NCBI GenBank assembly: GCA_937927755.1
Contig: CALBDB010000039.1
Location: 1-35,456 of the forward strand
Source of the DNA: an uncultured Lysobacterales bacterium
Lineage (GTDB): Bacteria; Pseudomonadota; Gammaproteobacteria; Xanthomonadales; SZUA-36
DNA length: 35,456 bases
Reading direction: 5' to 3'
This document shows positions 6,684 through 35,456 of the stretch, one piece after another (positions within the stretch are counted from its first letter, which is position 1; every line of letters starts with the position of its first letter). The notes under the pieces were generated by a model. The model did not search any database, had not been told where the DNA came from, and saw only the letters and a program-made list of their open reading frames with translations. A program made the translations under genes and the position numbers.

Positions 6684-8210
6684 ATGAGTAAAAAACCGCG
6701 TAAAGTCAAAAATAAGCTTAACAAGACGGTCAAGGCAAGGCAGTCTGTTTCGAGCCAGCAAAATATGCGCTTGCAGCAAGCTATTCATGCCCATTCAGCG
6801 GGTAATGCGGCATTTGCCGAAGCGGAGTACCGGGCCCTGATCGCTGAAAAAATCAGAACGCCCCAGATCTACAGTAACCTGGCCCTGCTCTGTGCCCAGT
6901 CAGGGCGCCGGGCAGAGGCCGAGGACCTGTGGAAAAAAGCACTTGCCGTTGATCCCCGCTTTCTTGATGCGCGGATGAACCTGGCTGACAGCTATCAGCA
7001 AAGAGGAAGTATTGAGCAGGCGATCGGCCAGTATCAACGTGTTCTCTCCGATCAAAAGAATTTTGTCATTGCCAGGTACTTATTGGCTAACCTGCAGAAA
7101 GCACAAGGAAAACTGGAAGACGCAGCAAGCAACTACAGGCAGATCATGGCCCTGCAGCCTGAATATACCCAGGCCCACTTTACTTATTCTGGCATACACA
7201 AATACAGGGATGAGGCCGACCCGCACATCAGTTCGATGCTGAGCCTGTATCATCAGGGTGACCTGAAGAACGAGGGCAAAATCCATCTTGCATTTGCCCT
7301 GGCCAAGGCCTTCGAGGATATTGGTGATTACCCCCGGGCGTTCGGCTACCTGCAGACGGGTAATGACCTCAGGTCCGCCGAGTCCCATTACGATATCGAA
7401 AGTGACCGACAACTCATTCAGAGTATTATCGATGTCTTCAGTAGTGATGCCATCTCAGGTGTAAAAATCGATGCCGGGGAATCTGACAGGCCCATTTTTA
7501 TCGTCGGTATGCCCCGCTCCGGCACATCCCTGGTGGAGAAGATCTTAGCCAGCCATTCCGATGTCCACGGTGCGGGTGAGTTGGATTATATCTTTTCGCT
7601 TGGTACGCGGCTTTTCCTGAAAGAGTCGGCTGACTACCTATTCAAATCGCTGGATTCCTACCCGGCAAGCAGGTTTGAAACAATGGGCAGGACTTATCTT
7701 GAACAAATCAACGTGCTGAACAGCCAGGCTCCCCGTATCACGGACAAGATGCCATTCAACATGATGATGGTGGGCTTGATCAAAATTGCGCTGCCCAACG
7801 CAAAAATCATTCACTGCGTCAGGGATGCAAAAGATACCTGTTTGTCCATCTTCAAACAGAACTTTACGACCGGGAATTACCGGTTTGCTTATAACCTGAA
7901 GACCGTAGCCCAGTTCCACAACCAGTACCGGATGTTGATGCAGCACTGGCACGAGGTCATGCCCGGTGAGATTTATGATATCAGCTACGAATCACTTACA
8001 CGCAACCCCGAGCATGAAATCAGGGCGCTGCTGTCAGCCTGCGATCTGGATTTTCAGCAAAGTTGTGTCAATTTTGAGAAAAGCGATGCAATTGTCAAAA
8101 CCGCGAGTGCATTCCAGGTCCGTCAGCCCATGTATACGAGTTCGGTCAAGCTGTGGGAAAGTTACCGGGAGTTCCTGGGTCCGATGCTTGATGAATTAGA
8201 GCAGAGCTAA
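6684..8210 (+). CDS. Tetratricopeptide-repeat sulfotransferase (second of two)
   Basis: A 508-residue protein with a very basic N-terminal tail (MSKKPRKVKNKLNKTVKARQ), then TPR units (for example QIYSNLALLCAQSGRRAEAEDLWKKALAVDP) and a sulfotransferase domain. The PAPS loop is IFIVGMPRSGTSLVEKIL (about 271-288) and the 3'-phosphate segment is IHCVRDAKDTCLSIFKQNF. The domain plan matches the upstream gene, with fewer TPR units, so the two are probably ancient tandem duplicates rather than recent copies. The ATG at 6684 has AGG 9 bases upstream; an in-frame TTG slightly upstream has no site. Acceptor unknown: a peptide, a polysaccharide or a small molecule are all possible. Confidence 0.87.
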   Translation: MSKKPRKVKNKLNKTVKARQSVSSQQNMRLQQAIHAHSAGNAAFAEAEYRALIAEKIRTPQIYSNLALLCAQSGRRAEAEDLWKKALAVDPRFLDARMNLADSYQQRGSIEQAIGQYQRVLSDQKNFVIARYLLANLQKAQGKLEDAASNYRQIMALQPEYTQAHFTYSGIHKYRDEADPHISSMLSLYHQGDLKNEGKIHLAFALAKAFEDIGDYPRAFGYLQTGNDLRSAESHYDIESDRQLIQSIIDVFSSDAISGVKIDAGESDRPIFIVGMPRSGTSLVEKILASHSDVHGAGELDYIFSLGTRLFLKESADYLFKSLDSYPASRFETMGRTYLEQINVLNSQAPRITDKMPFNMMMVGLIKIALPNAKIIHCVRDAKDTCLSIFKQNFTTGNYRFAYNLKTVAQFHNQYRMLMQHWHEVMPGEIYDISYESLTRNPEHEIRALLSACDLDFQQSCVNFEKSDAIVKTASAFQVRQPMYTSSVKLWESYREFLGPMLDELEQS

Positions 8211-8224
8211 TACAAGCTAACCAG

Positions 8225-8241
8225 GCCGGTTTCAAACCGGC
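8225..8241. terminator. Hairpin between convergent sulfotransferase genes
   Basis: GCCGGTT-TCA-AACCGGC is a perfect 7-bp stem with a 3-base loop. It lies just after the stop of the TPR-sulfotransferase gene and covers the last codons of the convergent gene, whose TGA sits in the loop. There is no T-run on either side, so the termination role is inferred from position only. Confidence 0.4.
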
Positions 8242-16638: not shown

Positions 16639-17676
16639 ATGGATATTGCTGAGCTACTGGCCTTTGCGGTAAAGAACAAAGCTTCGGATTTACACCTGTC
16701 ATCTGCGCTGCCACCCATGATTCGTGTGGATGGCGACCTGCGGCGGTTAAATTTGCCGGCCCTGGATAATCAACAACTAATCGAACTGCTGTACAGCACG
16801 ATGAGCGATCACCAGCGGCGTGACTTCGAAGCAAATCTGGAAGTGGATTTCTCATATGCGGTTCCGGGACTTGCCCGTTTCCGTGTCAATTGCTTCCACC
16901 AGGACCGCGGTGTTGGCGGTGCGTTCAGAACCATTCCAGCTGCAGTGTGGACATTGGAAGACATTGGTGCGCCACCGTCCTTCAAGGAAATCATCAATGT
17001 GCCACGTGGGCTTGTACTGGTAACCGGGCCAACCGGATCTGGTAAATCCACGACCCTGGCGGCAATGATCGATCACCTCAATACTACCCAGGCGGGGCAT
17101 ATTCTAACGATTGAAGATCCGATCGAGTTTGTACACACATCACGCAAATGCCTGATCAACCAGCGCGAAGTTCACCGCGATACGCATGGATTCAACCAGG
17201 CGCTACGATCGGCGCTCCGTGAGGATCCGGATATTATCCTGGTTGGTGAAATGCGTGATATCGAAACCATCCGCCTGGCTTTGACAGCGGCGGAAACCGG
17301 CCACCTTGTATTTGCAACATTGCACACGAGTTCAGCAGCCAAGACCATTGACCGCATCATCGATGTATTCCCCGCAGGTGAGAAATCCATGGTGCGTTCG
17401 ATGCTGTCAGAATCCCTGCGTGCGGTTATTGCCCAGACATTGATGAAGCGCATTGGTGGTGGACGAATTGCGGCCCATGAAATCATGCTGGCCACACCAG
17501 CGATAAGGAACCTGATACGCGAGGACAAAGTGGCGCAGATGTATTCCGCGATTCAGACCGGCCAGAATGTTGGTATGCATACGCTTGATCAGTATCTCGA
17601 AGGCCTGGTCGGCCGCGGAATCGTCGCACGCCAGGAGGCGGCCAGAAAAGCCGTCGACCGCAAACTGTTTATGTAA
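16639..17676 (+). CDS. pilT: Type IV pilus retraction ATPase PilT
   Basis: A 345-residue secretion-type ATPase that powers pilus depolymerisation, giving twitching and DNA uptake. It begins MDIAELLAFAVKNKASDLHLS, the usual PilT start. Walker A is GPTGSGKST (130-138), the Asp box follows as LTIEDPIEFVH, Walker B is IILVGEMRDIETI and the His box is GHLVFATLHT. The C-terminal AIRNLIRE motif, needed for retraction in PilT, is present in ATPAIRNLIREDKVAQM. GGAGGG lies about 6 bases before the ATG. pilU follows after 61 bases. Confidence 0.97.
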   Translation: MDIAELLAFAVKNKASDLHLSSALPPMIRVDGDLRRLNLPALDNQQLIELLYSTMSDHQRRDFEANLEVDFSYAVPGLARFRVNCFHQDRGVGGAFRTIPAAVWTLEDIGAPPSFKEIINVPRGLVLVTGPTGSGKSTTLAAMIDHLNTTQAGHILTIEDPIEFVHTSRKCLINQREVHRDTHGFNQALRSALREDPDIILVGEMRDIETIRLALTAAETGHLVFATLHTSSAAKTIDRIIDVFPAGEKSMVRSMLSESLRAVIAQTLMKRIGGGRIAAHEIMLATPAIRNLIREDKVAQMYSAIQTGQNVGMHTLDQYLEGLVGRGIVARQEAARKAVDRKLFM

Positions 17677-17737
17677 GGGTAATTTCCGGTCCGAAAGTTT
17701 ACCGGAAGACCGTGGGTACTAATTTGGAGGTGCAGGA

Positions 17738-18859
17738 ATGAGTGCAATACACGATTGGCTGATGAAGGTTCATGAAGAGAAGGGCTCTGACCTCTTTGTC
17801 ACCGCAGATGCCCCCCCGTGCATAAAGGTCAACGGCAAAATACGGCCGATTTCAACAGAAGTCCTGTTGGCCGAAGAGGTTGCTGAAATCGTCAATGGCA
17901 TCATGACAAAGAAACAGTCCAGGGAGTTTGAAGATACCCAGGAGTGCCAGTTTGCAATTGCACTTGGCGAGGATGTCCGTTTTCGTGTTAGTGCTTTTTA
18001 CCAGCAGGCCAATATCGGCATGGTGTGTCGTCGTATTGAGACCAATATACCGACATTTGAGGATCTTGGTTTACCGGAATTGCTGACCGATCTTTCGTTG
18101 GCAAAGCGGGGCATCATATTGTTTGTGGGCGCCACCGGCACCGGCAAATCCACTTCGCTGGCAGCCATGATCGGCTATCGCAACAAGAGGATGAGTGGCC
18201 ACATAATTTCCGTTGAAGATCCGATTGAGTACGTTCACTTCCATGGCAAGAGCCTGGTGACACAGCGTGAAGTAGGTATTGATACGGAATCATTTGAAAT
18301 AGCGTTGCGCAACACTTTACGGCAGGCACCGGACGTTATCATGATCGGCGAAGTCCGTACGCGTGAGACCATGGAATACGCAATCACTTTTGCTGAAACA
18401 GGTCATCTGGTTTTGTGCACGCTGCACGCAAATAACGCCAACCAGGCGCTCGACCGGATTTTGCATTTCTTCCCTGAAGAGGCTAAGGAACAGGTGTTGC
18501 TCGACCTGTCATTCAACATGAAAGCGATCATAGCCCAGCAACTGGTCCCTTCTGCAGACCAGACACGGCGCTGGGCGGCGGTCGAAGTATTGCTGGCTAC
18601 GCCATTGGTGCAGGAGAGAATCCGCAATGGTGAAATCACAGAGCTGAAGAAGATCATGAAAGAGTCAAACCACCATGGCATGATTACCTTTGATCAGTGC
18701 CTGTTCGGAATGTACAAGTCAGGCCAGATCACCTACGACGAGGCTATTCGTCACGCCGATTCAGCCAATGAAGTCCGCTTGGCCGTGAAAATGTCAGAAG
18801 GTGGGGACGCTGACACCCTTTCCGAGAACCTCAGAGATGTCGAGGTGATGGATCTATGA
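17738..18859 (+). CDS. pilU: PilT-dependent accessory retraction ATPase PilU
   Basis: A 373-residue PilT paralogue. Walker A is GATGTGKS (131-138); ISVEDPIEYVH, VIMIGEVRTRETM and TGHLVLCTLHANN give the Asp, Walker B and His boxes. It lacks the exact AIRNLIRE motif of PilT, having LVQERIRNGEI at that place, and has an acidic C-terminal tail (SEGGDADTLSENLRDVEVMDL), both typical of PilU. PilU needs PilT for retraction. GGAGG is 9 bases before the ATG. A strong terminator hairpin follows the gene at 18887. Confidence 0.95.
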   Translation: MSAIHDWLMKVHEEKGSDLFVTADAPPCIKVNGKIRPISTEVLLAEEVAEIVNGIMTKKQSREFEDTQECQFAIALGEDVRFRVSAFYQQANIGMVCRRIETNIPTFEDLGLPELLTDLSLAKRGIILFVGATGTGKSTSLAAMIGYRNKRMSGHIISVEDPIEYVHFHGKSLVTQREVGIDTESFEIALRNTLRQAPDVIMIGEVRTRETMEYAITFAETGHLVLCTLHANNANQALDRILHFFPEEAKEQVLLDLSFNMKAIIAQQLVPSADQTRRWAAVEVLLATPLVQERIRNGEITELKKIMKESNHHGMITFDQCLFGMYKSGQITYDEAIRHADSANEVRLAVKMSEGGDADTLSENLRDVEVMDL

Positions 18860-28834: not shown

Positions 28835-30013
28835 ATGTCATTCCTGCGTATGGACGAAATGAACCTGACCGGAAAGCGTGTGTTGATCCGTGAGGATTTC
28901 AACGTTCCGATTGAGTCGGGCAGGGTTGCTTCGGATGCGCGGCTAAGGGCCGGGCTGCCAACTATACGTATGGCGCTGGATGGTGGTGCTGCCGTGATGT
29001 TGATGTCCCACCTGGGACGTCCTGTCGAAGGGCAGTACAAGGAAGAATTTTCACTGGCGCCGGTGGCTGAACACCTGTCCGGCTTGCTGGATAAGCCAGT
29101 GAAACTTCAAAGTAACTGGCTGGACGGCATTGATATTCAGCCAGGTGAGGTTGTCCTGTGTGAGAACGTGCGCTTCAATCCCGGCGAAAAGAGCAATGAC
29201 GAAAACCTTGCCCGGAGGATGGCAGCGCTGTGCGATGTTTTTGTCATGGATGCTTTTGGGACCGCCCACCGTGCCCAGGCGTCTACCGAAGGTGTCATTC
29301 GATTTGCGCCCAGCGCATGTGCGGGACCATTGCTCAGCCGTGAGTTGTACGAATTGGACAAAGCGTTGACTGAGCCGGAACGGCCAATGCTTGCAATTGT
29401 CGGCGGTTCCAAGGTTTCAACCAAGTTAACGGTACTCGAGTCCCTGATGTCCAAGGTTGACGAGTTGATAGTTGGCGGTGGAATCGCAAATACATTTATT
29501 GCCGCCAGTGGTTACGATGTCGGCAATTCTTTGTATGAGCCCGACCTGATTGGCGAAGCCCAGCGCCTGATTCGCCTGGCTCACGAAAAGGGCGGTGAGA
29601 TACCTATACCGAAAGACGTCGTTGTCGCCAAGTCTTTCTCAAAGGATGCCAAAGCAGTTGTTCGTTCGGTGGATGAGGTTCAGGCCGACGAAATGATTCT
29701 CGACATAGGTCCGCTCACGTCGGTGGACTACGCAGGGATAATCCAGAATGCCGGTACCGTGATCTGGAACGGACCGGTCGGCGTATTCGAGTTTAAAAAC
29801 TTCGCTGCCGGAACACGCGCGATTGCTGATGCGGTCGAGATATCCAATGCCTTCAGTATAGCCGGGGGTGGCGATACGCTGGCTGCTATCGACCAGTTTA
29901 ATATTGCCGATGGCGTCAGCTATATCTCAACGGGTGGTGGCGCATTCCTCGAGTATGTCGAGGGTAAGACCTTGCCCGCGGTCGCTGCACTGGAAGCACG
30001 CTATACCGACTGA
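28835..30013 (+). CDS. pgk: Phosphoglycerate kinase
   Basis: A 392-residue enzyme that transfers phosphate between 1,3-bisphosphoglycerate and ADP. The signature [29 protein letters not shown] is intact, followed by MSHLGRP, the [11 protein letters not shown] hinge region, [16 protein letters not shown] and the nucleotide-binding [12 protein letters not shown] with [14 protein letters not shown] at the end. GGGAGG lies 9 bases before the ATG. In many gammaproteobacteria pyk and fba follow pgk; here the next gene is a convergent patatin gene 33 bases away, so the operon ends at pgk. Confidence 0.97.
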
Positions 30014-30046
30014 CTTTGTACTGGCCTTTGCTGAAAATATGGTTGC

Positions 30047-32308
30047 TTAACGCCGCCCCAGGCTGCGTGGGCCGAATACCGTACCCAACCTGAGGAAATA
30101 AATGGGACTGCGTTCTTCGCTCCAGCCTATGCCAAGATAGACCGGCCCCAGCGGAGAGCTATAGGCAAGGTAAAAACTGCCATTCAGAAGGCCTTCCGAG
30201 AAAATGTCGCTACGGTCCTCAGTAGCATTACCATACTCAAGAGTCATCCCTGCATAACCGGGCAGGAAACCACTCTTGCCTACCCGGTAACGGTAACCGG
30301 CAAGGACGTGACCAAAATGTTGTCCTATCAGTGAATTTGGCTCAAAACCTGACATATTCAGAAAGCCGCCACCAGTGTACCAACTATAGATCGAATCATT
30401 GTCTTCAAGACTGGTGTTGTACTGTGTTCCCCAAATCAGGTTATGTAGTCCGAAAGTATGGCTGCCGAACAAGCTAAACTCCAACTGATTGAAACCCACG
30501 TCGGCGCCCAGACTTTCGGGAGAGTTTGTGTACCTTAAACTTGATAAAACGCCACGCGTGGGAAGATAGCGGTCATCCAGTCGATCAAAATCCAGCTCGA
30601 TAAATAATTCAGAGCCGTCAAATGAAAAGGGTTTCAGGTCAGGGTCACCAACCAGAATGTCCATGTTCCCGGCGTAACGGGTAAATCCTGCGGAGAGTTT
30701 TGCGTAGCGGCCGAATTCCCGTCCAAATGCAATGGCGCCGCCAATCTCATCCAGCTCTATTTCCGCTATCGCATCGCCATTGGAATTATAGATATACAAT
30801 GGTCGACTGAATATTGAGATGCTGGGGTTAAAACTGTATTTGAGCGCATCGTCCAGTGGCCTGAAATAGTCTGCAAAAATTCCGGGCGACTCACCGAGTT
30901 GAACCATTGCCCGCACTTCAGAGCCACGATCATCAAGACCTGTATTCAGGTAGCCGCCCCTGAGGTTGAATTCCGTGCCGCGCCCACTGAAGCTTAGGTC
31001 AAGACCGGTTTCGATGAATTGTGTTCCGCGTTCGTCTTGCTTTACGGTGATTTTAATACCCTGCTGTCCATTCTGTTCAACCACGCTGTAGCTGGCCTGA
31101 CGGATAAACCCCAGACCATAGATCTGGCGCAAATCTTGGTCAAGCTGGGCCAGATCGAGAGTTTTTCCAGGTTGGATGGTGATAAATTCCAGGATAACGT
31201 CATCAGAAAACCTTGATTGGTTATCCAGCTGAACAAAGTGAACCTGTGGTGGCCCGTCTACGCAGTTGTCAATCTGCTGGCGCCAGGCACGATAGTCTTT
31301 CTCGGACAATGAATACTGCTGTAACCGGGCTTGTACAGCCTCTGCAGCTGCGTAGCCAAGAGGTATAGCCTCGTCGAGCTTGTTGAAATCTGCAGAACCG
31401 ATTTTATGACCTATGTCCGGTGCGATTAATACATCACCTTCAACCAGCGTTTCGATCTGGCGGTCGGTATTATGGACGGTCAGCAGTCCGCTCATCTGGT
31501 AAACAATAGCCAGGGCGTTATTGATTTCATCCTTACCAGCCAGCTTGGTGCCGACATCAACTGCAATAACAACATCCGCGCCCATATCCCTGGCGACATC
31601 TACTGGCAGGTTTCTGACCAGGCCGCCATCAACCAACAGCGCGTCGCCCCGTTGGACCGGGTCAAAAATCCCGGGTACCGCCATGCTGGCCCGCATGGCG
31701 ATTGAAAGCTCACCTGTACCCATGATAACCATTTCACCCGACACGATATCGGTTGCGATGGCGCGGAAGGGAATGGGTAGTTGATCAAAATCGGATGTAT
31801 TGACACGCTGGGATGCAAGCGATTCAAACATAAAGATAATCTTTTGACCGGAAACCACACCCTTGGGTAACAGGCTGCTGTCTTTTCCTATACCGAGCTT
31901 GGGCCCGAACAAACCCAGCGGGTCATCGGCTTTTCGTCTGAAGGGCAAATCTTCACGTTCTGTCTCATCCTTGAAGAGATCATCCCATTCCGCTTCTCTT
32001 ACGACTTGGCCCACCTCTTCAGACTGCATTCCGGTGGCGACGAAGCCGCCGACAATGGAACCCATGCTGGTACCTGCGATGAAATCGAAGGGGATGCGCA
32101 TTTCCTCGAGTTTTTTGAGCACACCAACATGAGCGTATCCGCGTGCACCGCCACCGCCGAGGACCAGTCCTACTTTGGGACGGTGGGTCACTTCGCTTTT
32201 AAAGCACTGACCCGTGGACGCGAATGCAGAGAGGGAAATGCCGGCTGATGAGATGGCGATTGCAACCAGAATCAGTCCCGGCATACTAAAGCGTGATGTC
32301 TTCGACAT
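30047..32308 (-). CDS. Patatin-like phospholipase with POTRA and Omp85-type barrel (PlpD-like)
   Basis: A 753-residue exported protein. A signal peptide (about 1-30) is followed by a patatin domain with the oxyanion loop GGGGARG (51-57), nucleophile Ser81 in GTSMG and catalytic Asp227 in VDGGLVRNLP. A POTRA-like module (about 355-430: VHFVQLDNQSRFSDDVILEFITIQPGKT and LRQIYGLGFIRQASYSV) precedes a C-terminal barrel of about 310 residues (QFIETGLDLSFSGRGTEFNLRGGYLNTGL onward). This is the layout of PlpD-type V(d) secretion proteins. The barrel ends FLRLGTVFGPRSLGRR, with a short basic tail after the last aromatic. Start: ATG at 32308 with GGA 8 bases upstream; a TTG 48 bases earlier is less likely. 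Confidence 0.9.
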   Translation of the reverse strand: MSKTSRFSMPGLILVAIAISSAGISLSAFASTGQCFKSEVTHRPKVGLVLGGGGARGYAHVGVLKKLEEMRIPFDFIAGTSMGSIVGGFVATGMQSEEVGQVVREAEWDDLFKDETEREDLPFRRKADDPLGLFGPKLGIGKDSSLLPKGVVSGQKIIFMFESLASQRVNTSDFDQLPIPFRAIATDIVSGEMVIMGTGELSIAMRASMAVPGIFDPVQRGDALLVDGGLVRNLPVDVARDMGADVVIAVDVGTKLAGKDEINNALAIVYQMSGLLTVHNTDRQIETLVEGDVLIAPDIGHKIGSADFNKLDEAIPLGYAAAEAVQARLQQYSLSEKDYRAWRQQIDNCVDGPPQVHFVQLDNQSRFSDDVILEFITIQPGKTLDLAQLDQDLRQIYGLGFIRQASYSVVEQNGQQGIKITVKQDERGTQFIETGLDLSFSGRGTEFNLRGGYLNTGLDDRGSEVRAMVQLGESPGIFADYFRPLDDALKYSFNPSISIFSRPLYIYNSNGDAIAEIELDEIGGAIAFGREFGRYAKLSAGFTRYAGNMDILVGDPDLKPFSFDGSELFIELDFDRLDDRYLPTRGVLSSLRYTNSPESLGADVGFNQLEFSLFGSHTFGLHNLIWGTQYNTSLEDNDSIYSWYTGGGFLNMSGFEPNSLIGQHFGHVLAGYRYRVGKSGFLPGYAGMTLEYGNATEDRSDIFSEGLLNGSFYLAYSSPLGPVYLGIGWSEERSPIYFLRLGTVFGPRSLGRR

Positions 32309-32404
32309 GTTATTGATCCGCTTGATAGCAGTTGAGAACGTGTCAATACTACACAAAAACCACTATCATTACGCACCGCTCTGAAACTGCTATGGGAATT
32401 ACAA

Positions 32405-34609
32405 TTGATTAAGTACTCTCACCTGTTTGGTCTGATGATCATATCCATTTTGGTCTTTTTCTGCGAAACGATAGCGGCAGATTCCCATGACAAATCAGCG
32501 CCTGGCTCGGAAATCGATCAACTGACGAATTACCCGCGTGTTGAGCGCTTTGAGCAAGGCAGTGTGCAGGTTGATTTTCCGACTCTCGAGTCATGGCCTG
32601 AGTTTCGTTTCCTGAGGGCATGGTTACCGGTTGAGGTCAGTTTGAACGGTGACAATCAGATACACGTGGGTTCGGCATACGTCCAGGCTACGACAGATAT
32701 TAATTTTGATCAGCGAACCGTGAGCATTTCAAACCTCGAGGTGCTTGATACAAAATTCCCGCCAAAAGATAAATTAGAGTTGGTTACAAGTCTTGTATCC
32801 CAGGCATTCCAGGGCCGCGAAAGCATCGTGCCCCTTGATGTCCTGCTGCGTTTGTTGCCGGAAGATTTTGAGATTCCGGAGCAGGGAGGCAGGAGTTCGG
32901 CGCTGAATTTTGAGCCACCGGTGATTCTGGTATCTGAAACCCCGGTCAAACTGCTGTCAATTGACAAGGAACCGGTCAGGGCTGCGATCCAAGGCACAAA
33001 GCTCGAATACATTGTGAATACAAATTGGTATGTCTTTTTCGATAGCCAGGGGGAGCGCTGGTACGTGCTCAACGAAGGTGCCTGGCAACAGAATAATTAC
33101 CTGTCAGATGGTGGTTGGACTACCATTGACAAACTCCCTGCTGATTTCAACAAATTGCCGCGCAATGATGACTGGCAGGAAGTTCAGGATGCTCTGCCTG
33201 CCAGCATACCCGGGCATACCCCAACACCTTTTGTGATCAGCCTCGAGGTTACCGAACTTATCCTTTTGGATGGCGCACCACGTTTAAGTGCGATCGGGAA
33301 CACCGGCATTTCCTATGTCACCAATACGCAAAGTGATTTGTTTTACCAAGGTGAGCGTTGGTATTTCCTTGTGTCCGGGCGGTGGTTCAGCAACAGCGAT
33401 CTGTACGGGCAATGGCAGGCTGTCAAAAACTTGCCGGACAATTTTGCACAGATACCATCCAGGCATCAGAAAGGACATGTTTTGTATTCCGTTCCAGGTA
33501 CCCGGCAGGCGAAGCTGTCACTGATTGAAGCAGCGTTGCCCCATCGTGTATCAGTTGGGAAAGAGACTGTTGCCGCAACAGAGGTGACATGGGTCGGCGA
33601 GCCACGTTTCGAAAGCATTGAGAACACCAGGCTCGAGCGTGGCTTGAACACGCCTTTCCAGGTCATCAGGCACAATAATTTCTATTACTTGTGTTACGAG
33701 GGTGCATGGTACTTCTCTGCGACACCCACAGGTCCATGGAAAGTGGCACAGCAGGTTCCCGCTGAAATCTATCGTATTCCGGCTACCGACCCTGCCTATA
33801 ACGTCACTTTCGTAGTATTGGATGAGGACACGGGCGATTCAGATGAATATGTAGGTTTTAGCTACTCGGATGGTTACAACGGTAATTATTCAACCACCGT
33901 GAGCGTGGTCTATGGTACCGGTTGGTATTACCCCTCCAGTGTCTACTGGGGCCCGTATAACAGGCCGTACTACTGGCATTACTGGCCGACTTACGGCTAC
34001 AACTTCGGCTACCACCCGGTAGGAGCATACTATGGAGGGCGATCCCGATATTACTACCCCTGGGGTGGTTGGTATGGCTATGGTCACAGCACGGTAACCC
34101 TGACCTCGCCAGCGTTAGAATTCAATCACGAATCCGGCTCAGCATGGGAAGGGCCGTTACAGACAACACCGGGTGAGCCGGCGAATGCTGTTGAGGATTC
34201 TCTCGCATCCTTCATGCCAAAGAAAAAGGTCGACGGCACGGAAGAATTTACCAGCACCAGCAAGGATGGAGCAGCAGCGCCAACGAAAATCTCGGCATCT
34301 TCCCTTTATGCGAGTACAGCACTCTCATCAAACCGGTTTTCCGGCCCCGGCGGAGAGGTATACAAACGCGAAGATGAGGAATGGAGCCAGTACGACGAGG
34401 GCAACTGGACGACCATGGAGGCCATGGAGCAGCAGCAACGTACCACGTCAAAACGACAGAGCAGGCCAGAGACACAGAAAAGGGAGCAGTGGTTGCCCGC
34501 GCACAAACGGACTTTGAGCAGGTCGGAGTTGGACCAACAGGAACTGGCCCGCCAGGAAGGTATGGAGAATTACGCCAGGTACCGGATGGAAAAAGAATCC
34601 CAGAAATAA
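32405..34609 (+). CDS. Large exported protein with internal repeats and a Tyr/Trp/Gly-rich segment
   Basis: A 734-residue protein, probably started by TTG 32405 with GGGA 7 bases upstream, giving a signal peptide (MIKYSHLFGLMIISILVFFC, cleaved near AADS). Residues 40-160 form a non-repeated domain. Three diverged repeats of about 75-80 residues follow at roughly 171-252, 280-352 and 389-459. Each has a beta segment, a GERWYVLxxGxW-type motif and a closing LPxxFxxIP. A degenerate fourth copy may lie at 649-672 (EEWSQYDEGNW). Residues 483-560 are very rich in Tyr, Trp and Gly; the C-terminal 150 residues are charged and Gln/Arg-rich. I recall similar WY/GW-repeat exported proteins but no known function. 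It is divergent from the patatin gene over 96 bases. Confidence 0.75.
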   Translation: MIKYSHLFGLMIISILVFFCETIAADSHDKSAPGSEIDQLTNYPRVERFEQGSVQVDFPTLESWPEFRFLRAWLPVEVSLNGDNQIHVGSAYVQATTDINFDQRTVSISNLEVLDTKFPPKDKLELVTSLVSQAFQGRESIVPLDVLLRLLPEDFEIPEQGGRSSALNFEPPVILVSETPVKLLSIDKEPVRAAIQGTKLEYIVNTNWYVFFDSQGERWYVLNEGAWQQNNYLSDGGWTTIDKLPADFNKLPRNDDWQEVQDALPASIPGHTPTPFVISLEVTELILLDGAPRLSAIGNTGISYVTNTQSDLFYQGERWYFLVSGRWFSNSDLYGQWQAVKNLPDNFAQIPSRHQKGHVLYSVPGTRQAKLSLIEAALPHRVSVGKETVAATEVTWVGEPRFESIENTRLERGLNTPFQVIRHNNFYYLCYEGAWYFSATPTGPWKVAQQVPAEIYRIPATDPAYNVTFVVLDEDTGDSDEYVGFSYSDGYNGNYSTTVSVVYGTGWYYPSSVYWGPYNRPYYWHYWPTYGYNFGYHPVGAYYGGRSRYYYPWGGWYGYGHSTVTLTSPALEFNHESGSAWEGPLQTTPGEPANAVEDSLASFMPKKKVDGTEEFTSTSKDGAAAPTKISASSLYASTALSSNRFSGPGGEVYKREDEEWSQYDEGNWTTMEAMEQQQRTTSKRQSRPETQKREQWLPAHKRTLSRSELDQQELARQEGMENYARYRMEKESQK

Positions 34610-34627
34610 CCGGGAATCACCTTCTGC

Positions 34628-34705
34628 TGTAGGAGCGACGCTTGCGTCGCGATCTCTTAGGCCTCTGTGAACACGAACAATCGCGACGCGAGCGTCGCTC
34701 CTACA
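34628..34705. repeat. REP-like double palindrome between convergent genes
   Basis: Two 26-base arms (34628-34653 and 34680-34705) are inverted copies with 25 of 26 matches, around a 26-base spacer. Each arm contains its own hairpin: GCGACGC-TT-GCGTCGC on the left and GCGACGC-GA-GCGTCGC on the right, flanked by TGTAGGAGC or its complement. The GTAGGAGCG head is typical of repetitive extragenic palindromes in gammaproteobacteria such as Pseudomonas. It lies between two convergent genes and could end transcription in both directions. No other copy is seen in the window. Confidence 0.8.
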
Positions 34706-34714
34706 AGGTCCGAG

Positions 34715-35456
34715 TTATTCCTTGGGCGGTATTGTCAGCTCCGTACCATCCCTGGTCGCCATGAACATCGGTGACATGATTTCCACGCCTGCCTCGTTGA
34801 AAGCATCCAGGATATTCGCGTTCAGGCTGGAATGTGTTCTGGGCATACCCACGGCGTCTTTTGTGGTTGCATTCAACTGGTAATTCACCGAATAGTCATC
34901 CAGTGATTTTTGTAGAACAAAAGGTTCCGGGTCTGCTTCAATATTGTCGGTTTTCAGCGCCGCGCTGATTAGCAGTTCGTGGACTCTTGTCCATGGCACA
35001 TCGTAACCGATGGTTACCGAGGTAAACAGGATCAGTCCCGGCCCCCTGGCCTGCTCGCTGTAGTTGATGATGTGGCTGGTGAGTGTCATGGAATTGGGAA
35101 TGGAAATGATCTCTTTCTTTGTGTTTTCCAGGCGCGTCACAAAACTTCCGCGCTCGACCACCACGCCAACTGTATCGTTAACCGAAACACGGTCGCCTAC
35201 GTTGAATGCACGGGTGTAGGTAAGAACGATGCCGGCGACCACGTTTGCCACGGCGGTTGTCGAGCCCAGTGACAACAGCAGGCCAATAAACAGGCTCAGC
35301 CCCTGGAACGCCGGGGAATCCGAGCCGGGTAAATAGGGGAAGATAATGATCAATGTCAGCGCATAGATCAGAAGCCTCAACAGGTTGAAACTGGTGGCCG
35401 ACCACTCCGAATAGAATCCCGGGATATTGATCCTGCCCCTGGCAATACCCTTAAAA
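34715..35456 (-). CDS. Mechanosensitive ion channel, MscS family, C-terminal part only
   Basis: The frame is open from the right window edge to a stop at 34715, giving about 247 residues; the N-terminus is missing. The visible part begins FKGIARGRINIPGFYSEWSATSFNLLRLLIYALTLIIIFPYLPGSDSPAFQG, then the pore-lining and beta-domain region LSLGSTTAVANVVAGIVLTYTRAFNVGDRVSVNDTVGVVVERGSFVTRLENTKKEIISIPNSM, which is characteristic of MscS (TM3 followed by the beta domain). The alpha/beta C-terminal domain follows, ending ELTIPPKE. MscS channels open under membrane tension and release solutes in hypo-osmotic shock. Long family members have extra N-terminal helices; how many are present here cannot be seen. 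Confidence 0.92.
   Translation of the reverse strand, partial: FKGIARGRINIPGFYSEWSATSFNLLRLLIYALTLIIIFPYLPGSDSPAFQGLSLFIGLLLSLGSTTAVANVVAGIVLTYTRAFNVGDRVSVNDTVGVVVERGSFVTRLENTKKEIISIPNSMTLTSHIINYSEQARGPGLILFTSVTIGYDVPWTRVHELLISAALKTDNIEADPEPFVLQKSLDDYSVNYQLNATTKDAVGMPRTHSSLNANILDAFNEAGVEIMSPMFMATRDGTELTIPPKE

Follow-up and report, generated by a model that had tools for sequence, protein, structure and literature searches.

It is an open question how lipids transit the Gram-negative periplasm, and to our knowledge few bacterial TULIP families are known. Those recognized before PMC6791001 were, according to its abstract, P47, OrfX2 and YceB. The YceB/DUF1439 family (PF07273) consists of bacterial TULIP lipoproteins with a solved structure (PDB 3l6i), and a lipobox for outer-membrane anchoring is given for 55% of the family (PMC6791001). 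The clostridial TULIP-like proteins P47 and OrfX2 have two TULIP-like domains and other partners, and DUF4403 (PF14356) is a double TULIP, two-domain protein for which no beta repeats are described there (PMC6791001).

In the window, i.e., the whole 35,456-nucleotide stretch of DNA analyzed in this study, a gene near the end of the contig encodes a protein in which a probable TULIP-like head is joined to three tandem repeats of unmatched fold. Database labels exist for such proteins, and literature searches on these labels and on TULIP proteins found no publication on the protein family; the papers under the name 'carbohydrate-binding family V' appear to concern chitinases and a metallopeptidase.

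Gene and architecture of the exported protein

The 734-residue open reading frame described in an earlier note on this DNA was recovered with a TTG start (Table 1), upstream of which inspection found GGGA, a weak Shine-Dalgarno-like sequence. The protein is probably exported, as had been claimed: by inspection, its N-terminus MIKYSHLFGLMIISILVFFCETIAA resembles an ordinary Sec signal, and 47 of 51 long family members carry a hydrophobic N-terminal stretch. On inspection, the signal of the window protein reads LVFFC and is without a lipobox; a lipobox-like motif occurs within the first 60 residues in 4 of the 51 long members. A periplasmic location of the protein is most likely.

Table 1. Features of the exported protein and its neighboring genes in the window.
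Feature	Position	Strand	Basis
CDS, three-repeat exported protein	32405..34609	+	734 aa, TTG start; ORF list and relatives
Sec-type signal peptide (predicted), residues 1-25	32405..32479	+	inspection; hydrophobic N-terminus common in long members
N-terminal domain, probably YceB/TULIP-like, residues about 38-146	32516..32842	+	AlphaFold2, VIA, profile-profile comparison
Repeat R1, residues 169-262	32909..33190	+	self-alignment, profiles, structure prediction
Repeat R2, residues 274-366	33224..33502	+	self-alignment, profiles, structure prediction
Repeat R3, residues 392-470	33578..33814	+	self-alignment, profiles, structure prediction
Tyr/Trp/Gly-rich segment, residues 482-561	33848..34087	+	composition, alignment, model
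C-terminal beta hairpin motif, residues 650-668	34352..34408	+	present in 26 of 51 long members
Predicted C-terminal helix, residues 706-733	34520..34603	+	model; conserved in near relatives
Patatin phospholipase, POTRA and Omp85 barrel, divergent neighbor	30047..32356	-	Pfam on window copy
MscS-type mechanosensitive channel, cut by contig end	34715..35455	-	Pfam

At E up to 10, the window protein had no match in Pfam, NCBIfam, PHROGs or the PDB sequences, and the family profiles, when compared with PDB sequences, gave E values of 3.5 (one hit) and about 1 (two hits), none below 0.95, which were taken as chance. When 49 family rows were scanned with Pfam at E up to 1, 20 families appeared, each in one or two rows, among which only SH3_CYT4 and Cupin_6 fell below E 0.001 (one row each); a second family scan of the same rows gave five families at E up to 1. 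Foldseek found no match for the whole-protein model among viral models at E 0.001, and Rfam reported nothing within positions 30000-35456.

AlphaFold2 prediction of the mature protein with 48 relatives (49 sequences) reached a pTM of 0.75, with ten-residue pLDDT means mostly at or above 90 over residues 46-505, values below 50 across most of residues 531-633, and a well predicted C-terminal hairpin and helix. The anatomy of the protein (signal peptide, three repeats and a compact high-confidence model) is well supported, in agreement with the modular make-up first proposed for it.

A probable YceB-like N-terminal domain

Between the signal peptide and R1 lies a conserved N-terminal domain (N-domain) that had been overlooked in the earlier note. 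Its best structural match by VIA is E. coli YceB (3l6i_A) with a Z of 8.7, an rmsd of 3.8 and 109 residues, a score only just above the Z of 7-8 that is typical for models without a clear match. Well below this score, the next rows are P47 (5.9, two entries), ToxS (5.7), a chain of a BoNT-NTNH-OrfX2 complex (5.2), BPIFA1 (4.9) and a bovine salivary protein (4.6), after which nucleoporin and polo-box rows are intermixed with more BPI-like proteins; the aligned range in some rows extends as far as the C-terminal hairpin. The overall likeness is thus to solved TULIP domains, with P47 and OrfX2 as the next TULIP matches after YceB, and nine of the top 14 rows are proteins that we take to be TULIP members. 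The ToxS, nucleoporin and polo-box rows among the same 14 count against a YceB-like fold. Foldseek gave no match for the model at E 0.001, and the two YceB chains (E 0.049 and 0.089) had the highest probabilities, 0.98 and 0.87, among the 50 matches listed.

Set beside the six-element TULIP core of a helix, four long strands and a further helix, the predicted domain has three long strands (residues 44-55, 61-75 and 80-92) followed by a helix (99-110), the earlier strands being short. Its first helix covers only five residues (37-41), and the model therefore contains no long first TULIP helix, so that a hydrophobic, lipid-binding cavity in the N-domain remains putative. Compared with YceB, the domain is shorter, is without this long first helix, without a lipobox and without a Pfam match, and is followed by the repeats.

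Profile comparison points to the same family. A profile of 37 N-domains was compared by hhalign with a DUF1439 profile of nine sequences found with PF07273 (seven over the cut-off of that family and two under it, with a tenth, weaker match excluded), giving a P of 3.4e-5 over 92 columns. The score of 34.4 exceeded the maxima of 17.1 and 24.2 from 150 column shuffles and 150 block shuffles, respectively, whereas reversed profiles scored about 12; among 41 profiles compared with the N-domain, DUF1439 ranked first and the runner-up scored 17.7. The match was weaker on two of three subsets tried: P was 0.035 with 11 subfamily rows alone, 1.2e-5 with the other 26, and 0.0022, with the register shifted, against only the six strongest DUF1439 rows. 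PF07273 itself did not match the window protein at E up to 10, and a scan of the complete genome with it found nothing at E up to 1. The N-domain profile also matched the C-terminal half of DUF4403 (six sequences; score 30.8, P 7e-4), a fit close to that of DUF1439 itself with DUF4403, which served as a yardstick (31.9, P 9e-4), and at overlapping positions; the observed 30.8 is barely above 29.6, the maximum of 60 block shuffles.

Combined, the likeness to YceB/DUF1439 comprises the predicted fold, the profile match and export. The profile comparisons support a putative remote tie of the N-domain to this family, the YceB-like fold is supported but not proven, and the N-terminal domain is, in our judgment, probably YceB/TULIP-like.

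Three tandem repeats of predicted beta structure

The three diverged repeats proposed in the earlier note are real, as the self-alignment scores beat every shuffle. Local alignment gave 126 for R1-R2, 78 for R1-R3 and 84 for R2-R3 against maxima of 51, 67 and 48 (1000 shuffles each), and profile-profile comparison between repeats, with up to 48 rows per repeat, gave probabilities of 99.3-99.8%. The repeats carry the motifs GERWYVLNEGAW (residues 216-227), GERWYFLVSGRW (316-327) and NNFYYLCYEGAWYFS (424-438). Each had been said to close with LPxxFxxIP or a variant, which holds for LPDNFAQIP (343-351) and VPAEIYRIP (451-459), whereas LPADFNKLP (244-252) ends in KLP rather than IP.

When residues 165-512 were predicted alone with 47 relatives, the pLDDT was 92.7 and the pTM 0.87, with seven short strands in R1, seven in R2, five in R3 and a short helix after each repeat; the repeats are accordingly predicted as beta modules, which agrees with their proposed nature as small beta domains. 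The best Foldseek match of the repeat model had an E of 0.026, no probability among the 50 matches listed exceeded 0.15, and many of the best rows are presumably beta-propellers. The best VIA match to the PDB had a Z of only 2.6, and the lack of a common family among rows at this Z and below is not taken as evidence. Because both sets of matches are only weak, the predicted repeat fold is likely, although not proven, to be without a close solved relative. WG-type repeats (PF14903) were considered as the identity of the repeats and rejected on an unconvincing profile match.

Additionally, about 25-36 residues of each repeat resemble one segment of the GH43 beta-propeller. The three matches (P 0.0026, 0.002 and 0.00029) are weak; none of 50 column shuffles per repeat scored as high, but one of 60 block shuffles scored as high as the match of the joint repeat profile, and no overall fold match accompanies the likeness. 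In the VIA comparison, R3 aligned over 35 residues with one GH43 and two GH117 chains at a Z of 2.2-2.4, which is background. A derivation of the repeats from GH43 propeller segments may thus be regarded as a lead only.

These matches also bear on the view, taken in the earlier note, that the repeats may bind carbohydrate in a protein of the surface or a matrix. The aromatic-rich beta repeats, the 'carbohydrate-binding family V/XII' label of one homolog and the GH43 and GH117 resemblances would all fit such a protein, but the last of these is at background or matched by one of 60 block shuffles, neither Pfam nor NCBIfam has a family that the window protein matches at E up to 10, and the families matched by the 49 rows are scattered, with no carbohydrate-binding family among the 20 and 5 found at E up to 1. 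The nearest approach to an adhesin was Collagen_bind_2 (one row, E 0.066), and the profile searches gave no match to a characterized enzyme or adhesin that would explain the repeats. No surface anchor was recognized, and nothing tested favors the surface or a matrix over the periplasm. We therefore regard carbohydrate binding at the surface as unlikely. For the window protein, the label 'carbohydrate-binding family V/XII' is not supported, and neither is 'SH3 domain-containing'; SH3 profiles matched the window protein nowhere and one of 49 family rows once (SH3_CYT4, E 6e-4), the rhizobial SH3 label being an annotation.

Aromatic segment and C-terminal tail

The dominance of Tyr, Trp and Gly noted after the repeats was confirmed, the richest 80-residue stretch (residues 482-561) holding 43 of these residues, as was the charged character of the C-terminal part (D, E, K, R or Q at 55 of 135 positions in residues 600-734). 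The first part of the aromatic segment (GY...VVYGTGWYYP) is conserved, with residue-by-residue agreement among relatives at the segment's start (VVYGTGWYYP, YW, TYG); the remainder varies in length among relatives and is short in some, and from residue 531 onward its pLDDT is below 50. A structural protein, in which this segment self-assembles into a gel or fiber and the folded part forms a cap, would be in line with the composition and the low model confidence. Position-by-position conservation at the start, set beside a rest of variable and sometimes short length, argues against it, and we consider such a role quite improbable.

On visual comparison, Tyr and Trp in the C-terminal hairpin are spaced in a way that fits the repeats, and the hairpin is possibly, but not provably, a degenerate repeat. 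As a fourth repeat it was rejected, its profile scores (13.6, 12.0 and 9.2) lying inside the shuffle range and the joint profile giving 11.4.

Distribution and phylogeny of the family

The family is widespread and covered by no Pfam or NCBIfam entry, a conclusion that is well supported. At E 0.001, 31 of 61 near genomes contain relatives, counting the genome of the window itself. A search with a 22-row profile and a threshold of E 1e-20 found them in at least 3 of the 274 genomes that sample the class and at least 11 of the 299 that sample the phylum, counts that include the window's genome and are rough lower bounds, as at most three to four candidates were scored per genome. Relatives were also found on 39 plasmid records, mostly from rhizobia and Paraburkholderia, whereas no phage record matched and none of 20 pattern matches in viral contigs was a relative.

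Labels among the relatives include 'carbohydrate-binding family V/XII' and, in rhizobia, 'SH3 domain-containing protein'. The proteins so labeled are true relatives, mostly over about 500 residues, with identities of 27-34% among the 20 listed of the 39 plasmid records; two rhizobial members that were aligned have an extra N-terminal segment ahead of the homologous part.

A tree built from 48 repeat regions places the window protein in a 17-row clade (support 100/100) with three subclades, and all 17 rows belong to its own taxonomic family. In one subclade, six of seven rows are missing the N-domain (L050-L054 and L058) and L048 has kept it; therefore the repeats, and not the N-domain, are the constant part within this clade.

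Several further copies were observed. A second copy in the same genome (L079, G000:C82:10783-12732; 31% identity) lies near genes that recur in four genomes and that we take, from their sequence, to be MsrP/MsrQ-like, encoding a molybdopterin oxidoreductase with its partner in the membrane. In genome G005, the gene is reduced to its last part (L059:7256-10676, with a 73-aa ORF at 8018-8239), located between DUF4136-like and patatin-Omp85 genes, which reflects either natural loss or an assembly fault. The relative at L057 (G014:C2) is interrupted by two in-frame stops, one TAA and one TAG, and is either a broken gene or the result of sequencing errors.

Gene neighborhood and possible function

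The divergent patatin-POTRA-Omp85 neighbor presumably encodes an outer-membrane phospholipase of the PlpD type. A gene of this kind is divergent and adjacent in all five loci of the window's subclade (window and L040-L043) and is present nearby in L047 and L049 but not in L044-L046, these and the following neighbor counts being descriptive. A DUF4136-type lipoprotein gene, assigned from Pfam on the L040 copy, lies directly downstream in L041-L043 and L049 and one gene later in L040. In the sister clade, MacB-type exporter genes lie upstream in all six tree rows with upstream DNA (L048 and L050-L054) and also upstream of the broken copy L057, L058 having too little upstream DNA; these calls rest on gene clusters, with Pfam run in L053. 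Genes for an adaptor, an AcrB-type pump and an outer-membrane factor follow in L051-L053, all of one genus, and an adaptor-like gene is also present in L048 and L057 but in neither L050 nor L054. In two rhizobial plasmid loci, a gene for a Phenol_MetA_deg-type outer-membrane protein is directly downstream, with sulfatase-linked or Bat-type genes close by. Synteny inside one taxonomic family can be mere inheritance.

The YceB/TULIP-like N-domain points to hydrophobic ligands, and a head resembling a lipid carrier, together with confidently predicted repeats without a solved match, may indicate an unrecognized lipid-handling envelope protein. Our tentative preference, held at somewhat less than even confidence, is a periplasmic envelope protein that handles lipids or other hydrophobic ligands, presenting or carrying them with its N-domain while the repeats serve as a docking scaffold. 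The N-domain, as a remote and shortened relative of the YceB/DUF1439 branch of TULIP proteins, would accommodate an acyl chain or a ligand of that kind; the tandem array of three beta modules would form a rigid platform for docking to partners in the membrane; and a tether or secondary contact could be provided by the aromatic segment and the tail. Ligand binding by the N-domain, the docking or platform role of the repeats, and a working link to the patatin-Omp85 phospholipase or, in the sister clade, to MacB/RND pumps are points that we only infer. Differences in neighborhood from clade to clade count against this lipid-handling function, and ligand handling by the N-domain cannot be the function in the MacB-linked clade, where six of seven rows are without this domain.

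Because most of the sister clade does without the N-domain, a role purely in binding partners competes closely with this proposal. The protein would then be an accessory of envelope assembly or efflux, with repeats that bind protein partners such as an Omp85-type barrel or MacB/RND pump parts and with the N-domain as a structural add-on without a ligand. The constancy of the repeats in the window's clade, set beside the loss of the N-domain in the MacB-linked rows, speaks for such an accessory, as does the tight packing in L053, where the family gene starts 10 bases past the preceding gene and overlaps by 4 bases the next gene, for an HlyD-type adaptor, after which come RND and outer-membrane factor genes. 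The distant member L055 is likewise located behind OMF-adaptor-RND cluster genes, across a gap of about 500 bases. However, only L051-L053, three loci of a single genus, have RND genes downstream, other clades have other neighbors, and the evidence for partner binding is gene context; we consider the accessory role somewhat doubtful.

A more ambitious form of the lipid-handling function would make the protein the founder of a new bacterial TULIP branch, fused to a triple-repeat beta platform whose fold is absent from the PDB. It would carry lipids between other parts of the envelope and either an outer-membrane patatin-Omp85 phospholipase, as here, or the tripartite exporters of the sister clade. 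We regard this as improbable on present evidence. More generally, a family combining a remote TULIP-like head, an unmatched but confidently predicted repeat module and phospholipase or exporter neighbors would make a concrete, testable new player in lipid transit, and the 'carbohydrate-binding' and 'SH3' labels now on such database proteins would be corrected.

Other genes recur near members of the family. In four loci (e.g., L053:5996-6748), the stretch from the MacB-type genes to the family gene includes a gene for a methyltransferase-like exported protein, its L053 copy having no NCBIfam match and its L050 copy no Pfam match. An exported, possibly outer-membrane protein family is encoded near the gene in six loci, two of them rhizobial (e.g., L041:4176-5159 and L078:1652-2533), with no Pfam match in three scanned copies and no NCBIfam match in two. 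On the rhizobial plasmids L025 and L026, the family gene occurs with genes for a TPR-like protein, a MetA-type outer-membrane protein, a sulfatase or formylglycine-generating enzyme and Bat/VWA proteins; L080 has the TPR-like gene and the sulfatase in common with them, making this a recurring set. Elsewhere in the window, two adjacent ATPase genes at 16639-18859 on the plus strand, which fall into one sequence cluster, are taken from their sequence to be PilT/PilU-like.
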